Positions 5,418-44,605 of a stretch of 64,000 nucleotides of DNA are shown piece by piece. Below the pieces are notes generated by a model. The model was not told the DNA's origin, made no database searches, and saw nothing but the letters and a program-made list of their open reading frames with translations. The DNA is from Methanosarcina barkeri str. Wiesmoor (GTDB lineage Archaea > Halobacteriota > Methanosarcinia > Methanosarcinales > Methanosarcinaceae): contig NZ_CP009526.1 of NCBI RefSeq assembly GCF_000969985.1, forward strand, positions 620,001 to 684,000. The letters run 5' to 3'. Numbering within the stretch: position 1 is the stretch's first letter; each line of letters opens with the position of its first letter. The position numbers and the translations under genes were made by a program.

Positions 5418-6347
5418 TCATTCATTTCTAAGACGCGGATCAATGATGCTGCAGACAATATCTACAGCCAGGTTAATTAACACCATCAAAACAGCCATAA
5501 ACAGCACATATCCCTGGACTACTGGATAGTCTTTGAGTTTAACAGATTCGAGAGCCAGATTTCCAAGCCCATTCCATGAAAATATTGATTCAATAATTGC
5601 AGATCCAGCTAACAAAGATCCAAATCCGATCCCAAGCTTGTTAAGTACAGGAAGCGTTGCGTTTTTTAGAGCATGTTTTGTTATTATTTTATATTCGCTG
5701 ACGCCTTTTGCTCTGGCTGCACGGATATATCCTTTGTTCAGTACTTCCTCCATATTTGTGCGAATAAGTCGGACATAAATCCCACCGCTGCATATAGACA
5801 TTGTAAGAGCAGGTATTATTGGAAATTTCATTGAACTTCCACCAAGCACTGATATTAGTCCAAGACGAGCACCGAAAATATACAGTAGAATGAGTCCAAA
5901 CCAGAATTCAGGCATTGATACACTCCAAAAACAGTATATTCTGGAAATCTTGTCGATCCACGAGCCGGAAAACACTGCCGATAAAATTCCAAGAGTAAAT
6001 GAAATTATAATTAAAAACAATAGTGCTAGAAGGGCCAACTGTAATGTTTTAGGAAAATATTGAACGATCTCATCAACCACCGGCCTGTCATTTGAATAAG
6101 AAAAGCCCAAATTACCCTTCACCGCATCTTTAAGCCAACTGGCGTATTGGACGAGCACCGGTCTGTCAAATCCCATTTCGGTTCGTATTTCCTCAATCTG
6201 CTCATATGTTGGCCTGTCATATTTCTTTTCAGCTAGTGTACGTGCCGTGTCACCTGATGACATGCTGCCGAGGATGAAGGTTATTAATGAAATAGCCAGC
6301 AGTACTGGAATCAATGTGAATAACCGTTCTCCTATGCCTTTAAGCAT
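5418..6347 (-). CDS. ABC transporter permease (DppB/NikB-like)
   Basis: A 309-residue permease with six predicted membrane segments. The N-terminus (RLFTLIPVLLAISLITFIL) and the TEMGFDRPVLVQYASWL stretch are characteristic of DppB/OppB/NikB proteins. The EAA loop is near residues 205-230 (AARAKGVSEYKIITKHALKN). It forms the translocation channel with the DppC-like partner encoded 9 bp downstream. A 265-bp gap without an evident gene separates it from the upstream methyltransferase gene, so it may have its own promoter or a processed leader. Confidence 0.92.
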   Translation of the reverse strand: MLKGIGERLFTLIPVLLAISLITFILGSMSSGDTARTLAEKKYDRPTYEQIEEIRTEMGFDRPVLVQYASWLKDAVKGNLGFSYSNDRPVVDEIVQYFPKTLQLALLALLFLIIISFTLGILSAVFSGSWIDKISRIYCFWSVSMPEFWFGLILLYIFGARLGLISVLGGSSMKFPIIPALTMSICSGGIYVRLIRTNMEEVLNKGYIRAARAKGVSEYKIITKHALKNATLPVLNKLGIGFGSLLAGSAIIESIFSWNGLGNLALESVKLKDYPVVQGYVLFMAVLMVLINLAVDIVCSIIDPRLRNE

Positions 6348-36071: not shown

Positions 36072-37326
36072 TAGGGTCCTCTTAAACTCACTCTCAAACT
36101 AGAGGTTATTACTTATTTGTTCCATTTATTAAGGTTATTAGTAGTTCCCCTCAAAAAAGTACATTCAATTTTTCGTCTGAATTTTAATTAATGTCATAAA
36201 AAATCGTAAATTTTATTGAGAAGGATTTTCAATCCTTCTCTGGTGATTATTACGAAACCTCCACTTATACCACTAAATGAAGATTTCAAATGGCAATTGT
36301 TGTCCGAAATATTAAATGTTTTTGATTTGAGATTCTGTAAGCAAACTCTTACAAGGAGGGGCATTGTGCCCCTCCACAGATCAGTACCTACTATAAAAAT
36401 TGTTCTTCTAAGCATGTTTTTTTCTTGTGAAATCTCTTATTCTATAAAGGAATTAAAAGAAAGAGAAAGCTTGAGAAACTTTTTAAAAATCAGTTTAGTA
36501 CCAACTGAAAAGGAAGTTTATGGCATTCTTAGTAAGTATGAACCCCAAGAGTTTACTGCTTTTGTTTTTGAAATATTGAATGATTTATGCCCTAAGAGAA
36601 AAAATGGATCAAGAGACATTATTATTGATAGTACTGACATAAACCTTAACCTGAACTGGCACGCTAAAAAGATTACCAAAGAAAGCCTAAAAAACAAAGA
36701 ATACAAGTGGGGCCATTCAACCCATAGAGGTTTCTTCATTGGCATGAAACTTACTCTTGCACTTGATTCTCAAACATTAAAACCTTTAGCGTTTCTGATT
36801 AATGAAGCAAATGTAGCAGAACCTAAAATTTATCCTGAAATACTTAAAGAACTTAAAAGAAAGAGAATAATAAAAGCAGGTGACGTTATCTATGCTGATA
36901 GAGGGTACTATTCCTATGAAAACTACGTTATATCTGTAAGAAATTTTAAGGTAGTACCTTTAATTTTTCCAAGGAAAAACTGTAATTTTAAGAAACTTTT
37001 CAATATGTTTAGATATCCTCTGAAAATATTTGATTTAAGAAGAAATACTGAAAAAGAAATTAAATTCTACAAAGAAATAATTGCAAAGTTTAAAGAGTTA
37101 ATAAGCAAATGGAAAGAACTCAGATCTGTAAGGTCAATCATAGAAGATGTATTCAAAATAGCGAAGAAAGCATACTCTATGGAGAATTTACACAGATATA
37201 CAAGGAGTTCTGTCCAAAAATACTGTTCTTTAGCTGTACTTTTAGTAGGGGCAACTGTAAATTACGGTATTAATGAAAGGAAGGAATTGCAAGCCTTCTC
37301 TGAATGAAGAAATTAAGAGGGGACTA
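36072..37326 (+). mobile_element. intact DDE insertion sequence with 9-bp target duplication
   Basis: A 1255-bp element. The left end TAGGGTCCTCTTAA (36072-36085) and the reverse complement of the right end, TAGTCCCCTCTTAA (37326-37313), share TAG and CCTCTTAA. It is flanked by perfect direct repeats TATTAATAT at 36063-36071 and 37327-37335. One transposase gene fills most of it. The preserved duplication and intact gene point to a recent insertion. Confidence 0.85.
36216..37307 (+). CDS. IS4/IS5-superfamily DDE transposase
   Basis: A 363-residue transposase. Candidate catalytic residues: Asp in IIIDSTDIN (about residue 133), Asp in IYADRGYYS (about 228) and Glu in SIIEDVFKIAKKAY (about 311), the latter two in the Y-(2)-R-(3)-E-(6)-K-like neighbourhood of the IS4/IS5 clan. 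Codon use is AT-rich like many Methanosarcina IS genes. It cuts both ends of the element and inserts into AT-rich targets, consistent with the TATTAATAT duplication. Confidence 0.88.
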   Translation: MRRIFNPSLVIITKPPLIPLNEDFKWQLLSEILNVFDLRFCKQTLTRRGIVPLHRSVPTIKIVLLSMFFSCEISYSIKELKERESLRNFLKISLVPTEKEVYGILSKYEPQEFTAFVFEILNDLCPKRKNGSRDIIIDSTDINLNLNWHAKKITKESLKNKEYKWGHSTHRGFFIGMKLTLALDSQTLKPLAFLINEANVAEPKIYPEILKELKRKRIIKAGDVIYADRGYYSYENYVISVRNFKVVPLIFPRKNCNFKKLFNMFRYPLKIFDLRRNTEKEIKFYKEIIAKFKELISKWKELRSVRSIIEDVFKIAKKAYSMENLHRYTRSSVQKYCSLAVLLVGATVNYGINERKELQAFSE

Positions 37327-38783: not shown

Positions 38784-39290
38784 TCACTTTTTTTTGCTTA
38801 CTTCACCAGTATCCGTATTATTTTCATTTTTTTTAGGACAACAGTAATTATTCTCAATAAACCTCATTCCTTTTCCATCGCCGCCAATTCGGAATATTAG
38901 ATTGGAGCCACAGTTTGGACAGCTTGTGGGGCGAGGCTGGTTGTCCTTTGCTTCCCACATATGATCGCATTCTTTACAGAGAAATTCGATCTTGCATTCA
39001 CCAGTATTAACGTATTCTCCTCCACAGATTTCGATCGCTTTTCCATTGACAAGAGCATCAGCAATCTTCTGTCGTGCCTTTTGGAGGTCGCTCCAGAAAG
39101 TTTTCCTGGATATTCCCATCCTGTCAGCAGCCTCACTCTGCTCTATCTTGAGAAGGTCGCAAAGACGAATAGCCTCAATTTCTTCTATGGATAGGTTAGT
39201 GATTTCCAAACAACAAAGAGGGATTTCTCTGGGCTTATAATAGGTGGCCTTTGGAAAGCAAGATACCCTGCGCTTAACTTTATTGACCAT
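38784..39290 (-). CDS. DUF134 (UPF0251) family HTH protein with C-terminal zinc ribbon
   Basis: A 168-residue DNA-binding protein. The N-terminal 100 residues are DUF134: RRVSCFPKATYYKPREIP, then LSIEEIEAIRLCDLLKIEQ and a helix-turn-helix SEAADRMGISRKTFWSDLQK. The C-terminal part has a four-Cys zinc ribbon (CKECDHMW ... SCPNCGS). Family members are thought to be transcription regulators, often near redox or metal genes. ATG 39290 is taken, with an overlapping TTG at 39293. A decayed copy lies 0.8 kb upstream at about 40040-40640. Confidence 0.85.
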   Translation of the reverse strand: MVNKVKRRVSCFPKATYYKPREIPLCCLEITNLSIEEIEAIRLCDLLKIEQSEAADRMGISRKTFWSDLQKARQKIADALVNGKAIEICGGEYVNTGECKIEFLCKECDHMWEAKDNQPRPTSCPNCGSNLIFRIGGDGKGMRFIENNYCCPKKNENNTDTGEVSKKK

Positions 39291-40039
39291 CAAATTACAC
39301 TTACGTGACGCGTAATAAATATCTATCGATCGAGGTATTCTATTTAAAGTATTTTTTACCTTAACATCTTCATTAAGGATTAGAGTAAATACAAACTATC
39401 GTTAAACACAAGCTACCATAATCGATGGCAACATACTTTCAAAATTGTTTCTTAAAAATAATTTAGAAAAAATTTCTGGTGAAACGTGTGTATTATTGAC
39501 ATTTAAGAAATATCGTAATGCTTACATAGTTTCCGGAATACGAGACATTGAAGTCTTATCTTTCTACTGAACCGCAGTTTGGACAGAGATCTTGATTGAA
39601 CTTACTATTTAAAACAGGTCTATCATAATTGCATGGCGGACAAGAAAAAGACTCTCTGATTTTTAATTATATCGCACTTACTAAATAAAATTGGTTAGTC
39701 CTTTAAGATTGGTTAGTCCTTTAAGATTGGTTAGTCCTTTAAGATTGGTTAGTACTTTAGTAGCTTACTTTTAATATGGCTTAGTTTTAAGATATATACT
39801 CTGAATAAGTTTTACATATATATCTTTCAAATCTGTAACTAATATCTTTCAAATCTGTAACTAAACTCTTAATTTCTATGAATACTGGCATGAATTTTTC
39901 CTCTGAAATCTTGAGCTGTAATTATATTCGGCAAATATTTATTTCCTGACCGTGCGTTGAGGCTTGAAATCCTCTACGTTTCAATATCTTCTGTCTTAGT
40001 CTACTTTCTACATTATTTTCTGCTTCTTTCATTAGTATT
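39291..40039. other. intergenic region with short tandem duplications
   Basis: No gene recognised. It includes four tandem copies of the 18-bp unit ATTGGTTAGTCCTTTAAG (39690-39761) and two copies of a 22-bp unit ATATCTTTCAAATCTGTAAC-TA at about 39818-39862. Confidence 0.5.
39690..39761. repeat. 18-bp unit repeated four times
   Basis: ATTGGTTAGTCCTTTAAG starts at 39690, 39708, 39726 and 39744; the first three are identical and the last differs at its end. No spacers, so this is a simple tandem repeat. Confidence 0.9.
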
Positions 40040-40640
40040 CCGGCTGCTTCCCTTTTTGGACAACAGAAATCATACCAATAAACCTCTTCCTTTTTCCATC
40101 ACTACAGAATTAGAAATACAGAATTAGAAATACAGAATTAGAAATACAGAATTAGAAATACAGAATTAGAAATACAGAATTAGAAATACAGAATTAGAAA
40201 TACAGAATTAGAAATACAGAATTAGAAAATTAGACAGGAGCCAAAGCTCGGACAGCTTGTTGGGCGAGACTGGTCGCACTTTGCGTCCCCCCATGATCTC
40301 ATTCTTTGCAGAGAAATTCGACCTTGCATCCATCGCTATTAACGTATATTCTTCTCAGAGACTTTGATCGCTTTTCCGTTGACAAGAGCAATCTTCTGTT
40401 GTCTTCTGTCATGCCTTTTGGAGGTTGTTCCATAAAGTTTTCCGGGATACCTCATTCTGTCAGCAGTCTAATTCTGCCCTACATGGGGACGGTCGCAAAG
40501 ACGAATGCTTCAAGCTCTTCAAAGGGCAAGTTAATAATATGGGAACACTTAGGGGTTTTTCTCTGAGTTTGTAATAAGTGACTTTTTGGATTTTTGACAC
40601 TTAGTTTAACTCAATCGACCATCAAAATACGCAAATGAGA
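40040..40640 (-). pseudogene. decayed second copy of the DUF134 gene
   Basis: The plus-strand text parallels 38830-39300 segment by segment: GGACAACAG near 40057, then AAACCTC-TTCCTTTTTCCATC, AGGAGCCAAAGCTCGGACAG, CTCATTCTTTGCAGAGAAAT, GATCGCTTTTCCGTTGACAA, and the start region TCGACCATCAAA near 40615. Indels destroy the frame. A 126-bp tandem repeat has expanded where the zinc-ribbon end would be coded. Confidence 0.85.
40103..40228. repeat. 14-bp unit repeated nine times
   Basis: TACAGAATTAGAAA recurs at 40103, 40117, 40131, 40145, 40159, 40173, 40187, 40201 and 40215 without interruption. It sits inside the DUF134 pseudogene at the point corresponding to ATTGGAGCC upstream sequence in the intact gene (which has one related GGAATATTAGATT). 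Confidence 0.93.
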
Positions 40641-41004
40641 TGTAGTATAAATAACTATCGTTATGTCACTTTAACTATTGATTAGTTAATAAGCTCTAAA
40701 TTCCTTTTTAGAATTCTACATTTTAATACAAAACTAGTAGCAACAAACTCATAACTATGTATGACGGATTATAAGTATGACGTTTGCTTAATATTTTTGT
40801 ATCATATATCTGTTAGTCCTGCGGCTCTTTTCTGCCTTTTATATCTGATTTAACATAAAAGTTATGCTATATCACTGTACTTTCGTTTTACCTCTTATTC
40901 GAATAATTTCATTTTCTCTTCTTATTAAATGGTAGTGGACGATGCCGTTTTTCACAATTCACTGAGGGTCAACAATTCATAAAAATCTAGATAATATTTA
41001 TGTA

Positions 41005-41960
41005 TTAATATTTTTTTATTTTTATTTTTGAACCGTACAAAAATAAAAGCTATTTATACTACCTCGCTTATGTGTAATTTAGGGACTATCCGAAAAGTGT
41101 TGTGACCTAATGTAACTTCTACAATCAGCGATCACAAATGAACGGATTCCGGATAATAAACACTAATTGTCCAGTTGTAATTATACAACATACGTAGAGC
41201 TTTTCGGATAGTCTTTAAGATCTCTTTTATTCTGAGATCACATCGTTTAACAACTAGTACTTATCCACTTGAAGTCTAAAATAAGGCAGTGTACCCCTAA
41301 TTTAATATTCAAAAATTTAATCGTTTACTTTTTTATTTAAATATTTTAACCGAACAAAAATGGAAACTATTTATACTACGCGCTTATGTGTAATTTAGGA
41401 GTTTATCTGAAAAGTGCTGTGACCTACTGTAACTTTTACAATCGGCAGATCACAAATGAACAGATTCCGGATAATAAGTACTAATTATTCAGTTGTAAAC
41501 TATACAACATGCGTAGAACTTTTCGGATATCATCCAGCACCTCATTTATTATTATGAGATCTCAACCTTCATTAATAGTACTTACTCACTTGAAGTTTAA
41601 TGAAAACATTGGGCTCTTAATTTTCCAATAATTAAAGATTTAACTGCTTAATTTTTATTTTTATATTTAAACCGAACAAAAATGGAAGTTATTTATAACA
41701 CGTCGCTTATGTGTAATTTAAGAGTTTATCTGAAAAGTGCTGTGACCTACTGTAACTTCTACAATCGGCAGATCATAAATGAACGGATTCCGGATAATAA
41801 ATACTAATTGTCTAATTGTAAATTTTACAACATGCATAGAACTTTTCGGATAGTCTCCAGGATCTCTTTTATTCTGAGATCGCGACGTTTACCATTATAG
41901 AACTTACCCACTTGGTGTCTAAAACAAAAGCAGTGAACTTCTTACCCTCTTCAACTCTCT
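41005..41960 (+). promoter_or_regulatory. three tandem 320-bp promoter/hairpin units upstream of cdhA
   Basis: Three consecutive units (about 41005-41325, 41325-41640, 41640-41960) share the order: ACCGAACAAAAATGGAA-type purine-rich stretch, TATTTATA (41051, 41368, 41690), CGCTTATGTGTAATTTA, then an inverted-repeat segment opening with TATCCGAAAAGTG-like and closing with CTTTTCGGATAG-like arms, then CTTTTATTCTGAGATC and ACTTACCCACTTG. The box spacing is 317 and 322 bp. Each unit looks like a BRE/TATA promoter followed about 30 nt later by a segment able to fold. They end about 225 bp before the cdhA start. Confidence 0.65.
41084..41213. repeat. 130-bp inverted-repeat segment, first of three at cdh
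   Basis: GACTATCCGAAAAG (41084-41097) and CTTTTCGGATAGTC (41200-41213) are perfect inverted repeats. Diverged equivalents start at about 41399 and 41722 and end at about 41530 and 41855. A related 167-bp element with longer arms lies at 57234-57400. Confidence 0.8.
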
Positions 41961-42184
41961 AAAAATTCAAGTTTTAACTGCTTGATTTACTGTACTTGAT
42001 TTTGTATTGTAAGTGTGCAAGTTCTATAAAAAGTTAAAAACGACTTACTAAAAATGTCATTTAAATAGCTGGAACTTTCAAGCAGACGTCAATACAAATT
42101 AGACAATCATTATCGGTATGCCAAATATCGTAAATACAATTGTCTGATAACGCGACTTTAAGCGTATTTAGGAGGTAAAGCTAG

Positions 42185-44605
42185 ATGAGTAAATTAACTA
42201 CCGGGAGTTTTTCTATAGAAGATCTAGAATCCGTTCAGATCACTATTAACAATATTGTAGGGGCAGCAAAGGAGGCTGCTGAAGAAAAAGCAAAGGAGCT
42301 CGGTCCTATGGGCCCCACTCCATTCCCAGGTCTTGAAACCTACAGGGACGACTGGAACTTCAAACTACTTGACCGTTATGAGCCTGTTGTTACCCCCATG
42401 TGTGACCAGTGTTGCTACTGCACATACGGCCCCTGTGACCTCTCCAACAACAAGAGAGGTGCCTGTGGTATTGACATGCTTGGCCACAATGGAAGGGAAT
42501 TCTTCCTCCGTGTGATCACCGGTACTGCCTGTCACGCAGCCCACGGCCGCCACCTGCTTGACCACCTGATCGAGATCTTTGGAGAAGACTTGCCCCTCAA
42601 CCTTGGGCTATCCGATGTCCTGACCCCAAATATCACAATTACCACCGGGCAGAGACCAAAGACCCTCGGAGAAATCAAGCCTGCGATGGAATATGTTGAA
42701 GAGCAACTCACTCAGCTCCTTGCAACCGTCCATGCAGGGCAGGAATCTGCAGAGATTGACTATGACTCAAAGGCCCTTTTCAGCGGTAGCCTGGATCACG
42801 TAGGCATGGAAATTTCCGATATAGTACAGATCGCAGCCCTCGACTTCCCAAGAGCTGACCCTGAAGCCCCTCTCGTTGAAATGGGTATTGGGACCATTGA
42901 CAAGAACAAGCCGTTCCTCTGTGTGATTGGGCATAATGTAGGCGGTGTCACCTACATGATGGACTACATGGAAGAGCATGAACTAACCGACAAAGTAGAA
43001 CTCGGTGGGCTCTGCTGTACCGCAATCGACCTGACAAGGTACAAAGAGGCCGACAGGAGGCCCCCATACGCCAAAGTCGTTGGTTCCATGGCCAAGGAGC
43101 TCAAGATCATCCGCTCAGGAATGCCTGACGTCATTGTTGTTGACGAACAGTGTGTACGTGGAGACATCGTACCCGAAGCCCAGAAGCTCAAGATACCTGT
43201 GATCGCATCCAATGCCAAGATAATGTACGGCCTCCCTAACAGGACCGATGCCGATGTTAATGAGACCATTGAAGAACTCAAGTCAGGAGCAATTCCGGGT
43301 GCTGTGATCCTTGACTACGATAAGCTTGGAGAAATCTCCGTAAGGCTTGCTCAGGAAATGCACCCGATCCGCGAAGCTGCTGGGGTAAGGGAAATTCCAT
43401 CCGATGAACAGCTAAAGGCATGGGTTGACAAGTGTGCAGACTGTGGATCCTGCTACCTGGCATGTCCGATTGAGCTGGATATTCCGGAAGCCATGAAATT
43501 CGCCAAGCAGGGAGACTTCAGTTACCTTGAAAACCTCCACGATTCATGTATTGGCTGCCGCCGCTGCGAACAGGTTTGTAAGAAGGAGATCCCAATCCTT
43601 AGCGTCATAGAGAAAGCATCCCAGAAGATTATCGCTGAGGAGAAAGGCTGGATGAGAGCCGGCAGGGGTCAGGTATTTGATGCCGAAATCCGTTCAGAGG
43701 GTCTCAACCTTGTCATGGGTACAACCCCTGGTATCATCGCAATCATTGGATGTCCAAACTACTCTGATTGTGCCAAGGGTGTTTACTACATTGCAGAGGA
43801 GTTCCTGAAGAGGAACTACATCGTTGTTGGTACAGGTTGTGGGTCCATGGACATGGGCATGTACAAGGATGAAAATGGACAGACACTATATGAGAGGTTC
43901 CCAGGTGGATTCCAGTCAGGAGGACTTTCCAACATAGGATCCTGTGTCTCGAACGCCCATATCACTGGAGCTGCACAGAAAGTAGCCGGAATTTTCGGTG
44001 GCAGAACAATGGACGGAAACCTCGCGGAAATCGCTGACTATGTCCTGAACCGTGTTGGTGCCTGCGGACTTGCATGGGGTGCATTCTCGCAGAAGGCTTC
44101 TTCCATCGGTACAGGGTGTAACATCTACGGTATCCCAGCAGTTCTCGGTGCCCACAGCTCAAAGTACAGGAGAGCCCTGATCGCAAAGAACTATGATGAG
44201 TCCAAGTGGAAAGTCTATGATGCCAGAAACGGCGAAGAGATGGCAATCCCACCAGCTCCAGAATTCCTCCTGACCACAGCAGAGACCTGGCAGGAAGCGG
44301 TTCCAATGATGGCAAAAGCCTGCATCCGCCCGTCCGACAACAACCTGGGCAGGTCTATCAAACTGACTCACTGGATGGAACTCCACGAAAAGTACATTGG
44401 TGGACTGCCTGAAGACTGGTGGAAGTTCGTCAGGAACGAAGCTGACCTCCCACTTGCCAAGCGTGCAGATCTATTGAAGAAACTCGAAGAAGAACATGGC
44501 TGGGAAATCGACTGGAAGAGGAAGAAGATCATATCTGGTCCAAAGATCAAGTTCGATGTCTCGGCACAGCCTACTAACCTCAAGAGACTCTGCAAGGAGG
44601 CCTGA
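42185..44605 (+). CDS. cdhA: acetyl-CoA decarbonylase/synthase, CO dehydrogenase alpha subunit
   Basis: An 806-residue Ni-CO dehydrogenase. The N-terminal cluster cysteines are in [15 protein letters not shown] and ACGID; the two ferredoxin-type [4Fe-4S] motifs unique to archaeal CdhA are [14 protein letters not shown] and [14 protein letters not shown] (about residues 418-470). C-cluster ligands follow in the C-terminal half ([25 protein letters not shown]). It interconverts CO and CO2 within the acetyl-CoA cleaving complex. TAGGAGG precedes ATG 42185. First gene of cdhABC-cooC-cdhDE; cdhB starts two bases after its stop. Confidence 0.98.

Follow-up and report, generated by a model that had tools for sequence, protein, structure and literature searches.

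The three tandem units that precede one cdh operon of Methanosarcina barkeri str. Wiesmoor each carry an 18-mer, in exact or near copy, that is antisense to the predicted mRNA start of the other cdh operon of the same genome. Here, the operon adjoining the array is called cdh1, the array-less one cdh2, and the window is the whole stretch of DNA that was analysed (64,000 nt). Judging from sequence comparisons, one copy of the operon probably regulates the other, and it seems rather likely that this occurs through RNA-RNA pairing between the array units and the cdh2 mRNA. Methane formation from acetate has CODH/ACS as its central enzyme. Why Methanosarcina has kept two cdh operons that are almost identical, and in what way the cdh leader works, are questions that such a model addresses. 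Its answer is specific and ready for mutagenesis: an RNA from one operon would target nt 1-18 of the mRNA of the other.

Organization of the array

The array consists of three units of 317-324 bp each, spanning positions 41013-41975, with a start-to-start spacing of 317-323 nt at positions other than the promoter. Each unit is composed, in order, of a T-rich stretch, the box TATTTATA, a conserved CGCTTATGTGTAATTTA, an inverted-repeat segment of about 130 nt, a GATCTC...GAGATC hairpin and a tail of about 100 nt. The preliminary description had recognized three units with a box at the same place in each, and both observations hold: the promoters are spaced by 317 and 322 nt, the units have nhmmer matches in related species, and TATTTATA is found at 41051, 41368 and 41690. 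The features of the region are as follows.

41013-41329, + strand: unit 1, distal-most; promoter, putatively MITE-derived structured RNA and tail; candidate small-RNA gene
41051-41058, + strand: TATA box of unit 1; start predicted from distance at about 41081
41079-41218, + strand: putatively MITE-derived segment of unit 1; closing stem arms (former terminal inverted repeats) and inner hairpins
41151-41168, + strand: antisense core of unit 1, GGATAATAAACACTAATT; 18/18 against predicted cdh2 mRNA nt 1-18
41219-41239, + strand: small second hairpin of unit 1, GATCTC-loop-GAGATC, 3′ of the main structure
41330-41651, + strand: unit 2, middle; two core changes, each G-U-compatible with the target
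41368-41375, + strand: TATA box of unit 2; start predicted from distance at about 41398
41469-41486, + strand: antisense core of unit 2, GGATAATAAGTACTAATT
41652-41975, + strand: unit 3, proximal; promoter plus the beginning of the cdh1 mRNA leader
41690-41697, + strand: TATA box of unit 3; start of the cdh1 mRNA predicted from distance at about 41720
41792-41809, + strand: antisense core of unit 3, GGATAATAAATACTAATT
41976-42184, + strand: remaining cdh1 leader; ribosome-binding site AGGAGG at 42170-42175
42185-44605, + strand: cdhA of the array-bearing (cdh1-type) operon

Transcription start sites were predicted by distance, about 26 nt downstream of the centre of the TATA box. This puts the start on the opening bases of the inverted repeat, so that the RNA would have its 5′ end inside the stem. 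Transcripts had been expected to begin just before a long hairpin; the hairpin is indeed downstream of the TATA box, but the predicted start is better placed at the first bases of the stem. Likewise, inverted repeats do bound a segment of about 130 bp, but the arms of unit 1, formerly given as perfect over 14 bp, are 19 nt long and 89% complementary (41079-41097 and 41200-41218, with 102 nt between them). The inverted repeats of units 2 and 3 pair at the RNA level with G-U pairs. Folding of 165 nt gives energies of -50, -39 and -43 kcal/mol for units 1, 2 and 3, and the predicted fold is multi-branched, with the core loop AAACACTA unpaired. The second hairpin, located at 41861-41881 in unit 3, is possibly the 3′ end signal of the unit RNA. 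An Rfam search of the array and the cdh2 leader returned nothing near the gathering threshold.

Distribution in Methanosarcina

A unit profile was searched with nhmmer against 31 Methanosarcina genomes, including that of the window. Between two and four copies precede one cdhA in 14 of the 31 (window genome counted), while the other cdhA of these genomes has no unit; in the 13 other genomes, full units were found upstream of cdhA, most with E values from 1e-60 to 1e-104. All 14 single-cdhA genomes are without a unit, and a further three gave no cdhA match. Among named assemblies, BM5_bin.6, STD2_68 and BL5_bin.6 also carry arrays, the last having one unit within 4 kb of cdhA. Thus, an array precedes one cdh operon in all 17 two-operon genomes examined, and the number of units, for which a check in other species had been suggested, varies from one to four. 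The promoter box is present at a fixed position in all 31 full-length units (TATTTATA in 27, TATATATA in four), so that the combination of promoter and hairpin first described for this window is conserved across the genus. The proximal unit almost always ends 150-220 nt upstream of cdhA, and other units may be as far as 1.9 kb upstream. In the window genome, the second cdh operon, at C2:950180, has a different leader and no array. Additionally, genome G001 has a third, isolated cdhA (C1:5430885-5433299) that has kept the 3′ part of a cdh2-type leader and lost the 18-nt target site.

The antisense core and its target

Conservation within the unit peaks at TGAACGGATTCCGGATAATAAACACTAATTGT. This stretch ends in GGATAATAAACACTAATT, which, read as its reverse complement, matches AATTAGTGTTTATTATCC of the array-less cdh leader exactly. 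In the window genome, the target of the unit 1 core is found at C2:949814-949831 (18/18). The leader copy lies 351-380 nt upstream of the start codon (the cdh leader of M. thermophila is reportedly about 370 nt long). The TATA box TTATATAG is centred about 26 nt upstream of this copy, which would therefore form nt 1-18 of the cdh2 mRNA. The 18-mer is thus in sense orientation at the predicted start of the array-less leader and in antisense orientation in the units.

When up to two mismatches were allowed in the 31 genomes, exact copies were found at cdh loci only, and the four matches in the window genome are the three units and the one leader. The sole near match outside cdh that was checked, G009:890164, is inside a protein-coding frame. 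In all 17 two-operon genomes, one unit is complementary to the leader of the same genome at 18/18 positions, and it is the distal-most one wherever there are two or more; the proximal unit is exactly complementary in six species of the genus search, and non-pairing mismatches are frequent in proximal and middle units. The longest complementary run between unit and leader is 18, compared with a maximum of 13 in 500 shuffles. For the unit 1 core and the cdh2 leader, a duplex of -21.4 kcal/mol is predicted (net -13.8 kcal/mol); the predicted net pairing is from -10 to -15 kcal/mol, and opening of the loop requires about 0 kcal/mol. By comparison, whole-length duplex energies were uninformative (-40 observed, mean of -33 ± 4 with shuffled leaders), as they are dominated by long loops. 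We also discarded wobble-only drift of the core as proof of pairing: although all three changes in the window allow G-U pairing, proximal and middle units elsewhere also have incompatible ones.

Regarding the origin of the match, gene conversion was rejected: the flanks on both sides differ between leader and unit, which argues that the shared 18-mer is not copied DNA. Each MITE copy that was sampled differs from the core at no fewer than 5 of the 18 positions, and perfect complementarity would therefore have been gained after insertion. The leader motif is exact in six of the 12 array-less single-operon species examined, which suggests that it has some role independent of the array; in about half of the species without arrays, the leader site has drifted freely, with one to four changes.

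Another stretch of the unit, TGAACGGATTC, is complementary to GAATCCGTTCA near the start of cdhA (window 42222-42237; cdhA codons 13-18, also given as 14-17). The GAATCCGTTCA match is present in 23 of the 24 cdhA genes checked from array species and in six of 11 others. It is a possible second contact of the unit RNA, although coding constraint and inherited MITE sequence account for part of it.

Signs of possible selection at the RNA level

In three independent lineages, the leader departs from the consensus, and in each of them the same change is found in a unit. In G022, the leader has GTGTGT and the distal unit ACACAC; in G023, the leader has GTGTCC and three units have GGACAC; and in BL5_bin.6, ATTACCC in the leader is matched by GGGTAAT in the unit. 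When units were permuted among genomes, this matching had p = 2.5e-4, and the pairing energies of units with leaders from other genomes are worse than those of own pairs.

The closing stem provides a different kind of observation. On the + strand, its G-U and A-C cells, which are not independent events, number 47 and 8, whereas the ends of dispersed MITEs have 22 and 21; a contrast of this sign is what selection for folding of the + strand RNA would be expected to leave. Covariation in the inner hairpins is weak.

Distal and proximal units also differ in what is conserved. Between distal orthologues, the promoter is 83-88% identical, the hairpin segment 92%, the tail 75-77% and the interval with the cdhA relic 68-85%; between proximal orthologues, the tail, which is the cdh1 leader, is 89% identical. 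On sequence grounds, this pattern separates a candidate stand-alone RNA gene (distal) from a promoter-leader (proximal). The units have the characteristics of a small RNA that can be read from sequence, namely a predicted promoter of their own, conserved complementarity to an unlinked mRNA and compensatory changes.

Alternative folds of the cdh2 leader

Two folds are predicted for the cdh2 leader. One contains the long helix CCAUCGGUAGCGACC/GGUCUCAAUCGUUGG, backed by pairing of GUGUUU at the 5′ end with AAAAAC. The other, terminator-like, contains the hairpin AAUCGUU/AACGGUU followed by seven U. When nt 1-18 were barred from pairing, thermodynamic prediction shifted all 21 scored leaders towards the terminator-like hairpin, by an amount that varies with the folded length (at 82 nt, some free leaders already favour this fold). 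It counts against a switch between terminator and antiterminator that its pairs are almost invariant across leaders and that a U tract is the main requirement for termination in archaea. Where G022 and G023 have changed on both sides, the pair within the leader is lost but pairing with the unit RNA is kept.

The 95-nt start of the leader is itself nearly invariant in all Methanosarcina, array-less species included, and is absent from Rfam. In array-less cdh leaders (e.g., L062, about 5635-5715), it has two exclusive folds and a U7 tract, which makes it a candidate cis-regulatory RNA in its own right.

Proposed mechanism and alternatives

We propose that the array comprises sibling units for regulatory RNAs, each under an archaeal promoter of its own. 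Each unit would give an RNA of about 135-160 nt that starts within the long stem, a former MITE terminal repeat, and presents AAACACTA in a hairpin loop; this loop belongs to the 18-nt core, which is antisense to the predicted 5′ terminus of the cdh2 mRNA. Distal units, which keep the core best and need not belong to the cdh1 mRNA, would be stand-alone small RNAs acting in trans on that mRNA, while the proximal unit would also be the promoter and leader of cdh1. Since all units share the cdh1-type promoter, their RNA would tie cdh2 to the activity of the cdh1 promoter. By pairing with nt 1-18, the RNA would keep the 5′ end of cdh2 out of the antiterminator-like fold and favour the hairpin and U7 tract (AAUCGUU/AACGGUU-UUUUUUU), causing attenuation of cdh2; protection or degradation of the 5′ end are alternative outcomes. 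A trans pairing that disfavours readthrough of cdh2 is preferred because blocking nt 1-18 shifts the leaders and the co-substitutions keep the pairing with the unit. The direction of the effect is the least certain step of the model. In M. acetivorans, both cdh operons are more expressed on acetate than on trimethylamine (PMC12918732), and hence a purely repressive role is not obvious. Both the attenuation step and the complete proposal, in which a domesticated MITE became a tandem antisense RNA family and mediates trans-attenuation between paralogous operons through mRNA nt 1-18, are tentative and fall short of an even chance.

The 18-mer could instead be a DNA operator for a cdh-specific regulator, located at the cdh2 start and inverted in each cdh1 unit, with the array being a multi-operator promoter. 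DNA sites are indifferent to orientation, the motif is kept at the start site in single-operon species, and a regulator with drifting specificity could pull all its sites along; an acetate regulator, MreA, is known from M. acetivorans (PMC3600222). We nonetheless consider this unlikely, as the motif is non-palindromic, its exact copies are nowhere but at cdh loci, and conservation is higher in the distal copy, which may lie as far as 1.9 kb from cdhA next to a decayed gene fragment, than in the copy within the actual cdh1 leader; the strand-specific G-U bias of the stem and the conservation of the whole 130-nt segment would also be left unexplained.

The preliminary description had assigned the array a role in cis, with multiple cdh1 promoters and serial folded leader segments setting cdh1 output. 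Every unit does have a TATA box, and the proximal one adjoins cdhA. Moreover, Methanosarcina is known to control CODH/ACS through a 5′ leader, probably via early termination or cleavage (Anderson et al. 2009, as summarized in PMC3600222). Tuning of the downstream operon does not fit the conserved core, however, which is antisense to the mRNA 5′ end of the other operon. A role in cis alone explains neither this exact, co-varying complementarity nor the lost conservation of the tail in distal units, and in many species a pseudogene relic of about 0.4-1 kb separates the distal unit from cdh1; we regard it as improbable. The premature termination then suggested is possible, but it would take place in the leader of the paralogous operon, cdh2. 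Finally, the cdh1 mRNA leader itself might pair with the cdh2 leader, with no separate small RNA and with the distal units as inert relics. The proximal unit is within the cdh1 leader and exact in six species of the genus search, and the only unit of BL5_bin.6 is proximal and co-varies; but where units differ, the exact match is the distal one, which makes this explanation very improbable. Trans-acting RNA from the units is retained as the preferred reading.

Origin of the units

The suspected MITE-like origin of the hairpin segment is supported, since it shares a homologous interior and terminal repeats with a dispersed MITE family. Dispersed MITEs of about 131 bp and elements of 871-872 bp have GAGCCTATCCGAAAAGT at both ends, and the latter encode an IS4/5-type DDE transposase (DUF4096 and DDE_Tnp_1). 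The segment thus appears to be an old, immobile copy of an IS5-type MITE. That such an element brought the promoter can be dismissed, as the MITE stops with its terminal repeat downstream of the TATA box and dispersed copies have no promoter. Most dispersed copies are flanked by TTA or TAA; the cdh units have degraded flanks (TTA on the left, TAA or TTA on the right). There is no sign of mobility at the cdh locus, where units are found only upstream of cdhA and have spread by tandem duplication. The cdh copies share with IS5-family MITEs the terminal repeats GAGCCTATCCGAAAAGT, the length of about 130 bp and the interior, and differ in being fixed at one locus, diverged and joined to a promoter, with a core under selection.

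The stretch that follows the distal unit in G010, G020, G022 and G001 opens with decayed copies of the cdh1 leader and of the initial 25-50 cdhA codons, and it also carries copies of sequence from upstream of the array. Hence, the array originated when a region comprising the cdh1 promoter, the leader and the 5′ end of cdhA was duplicated in tandem, gene ends included. In the clade of the window, the cdhA relic has been lost and the three units are close together. Small ORFs between units are relics only, such as a truncated CdhA start in G022.

Upstream of the array, the window encodes a transposase of 363 aa with a DDE_Tnp_1 domain (36216-37307, about 5 kb upstream of cdhA) and a DUF134 protein (38784-39293, - strand). 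Cross-species matches suggest that 40225-40660 (- strand) is a decayed second copy of the DUF134 region, a trace of the same tandem duplications. A promoter-like sequence at 40624-40656 (- strand), with 79% identity to the unit promoter across 33 nt (TATTTATACTAC), points away from cdh and may drive a divergent relic.

Comparison with known systems

Both the transposon origin and the pairing site have been identified here. If the model is true, this would be a clear archaeal case of conversion of a transposon into a regulatory RNA, the evidence being that two unlinked loci covary. Bacterial sibling small RNAs are tandem, near-identical RNAs, and ColE1-type antisense RNAs pair loop first and switch the fold of a leader. 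Compared with these, the cdh units are archaeal and apparently MITE-derived, and their target would be the paralogue of the adjoining operon. The leader that they would target is the one whose regulation was described by Anderson et al. (2009); the summary of that work in PMC3600222 includes no trans RNA. Another related system is sRNA41 of Methanosarcina mazei (Buddeweg et al., as cited in PMC5867862), a trans RNA of the same genus that is reported to control ACDS/CODH by base pairing. According to that account, sRNA41 is intergenic and nitrogen-controlled and masks ribosome-binding sites within the operon, whereas the cdh units are placed in tandem before a paralogous operon, share its promoter type and are antisense to nt 1-18 of the predicted mRNA.
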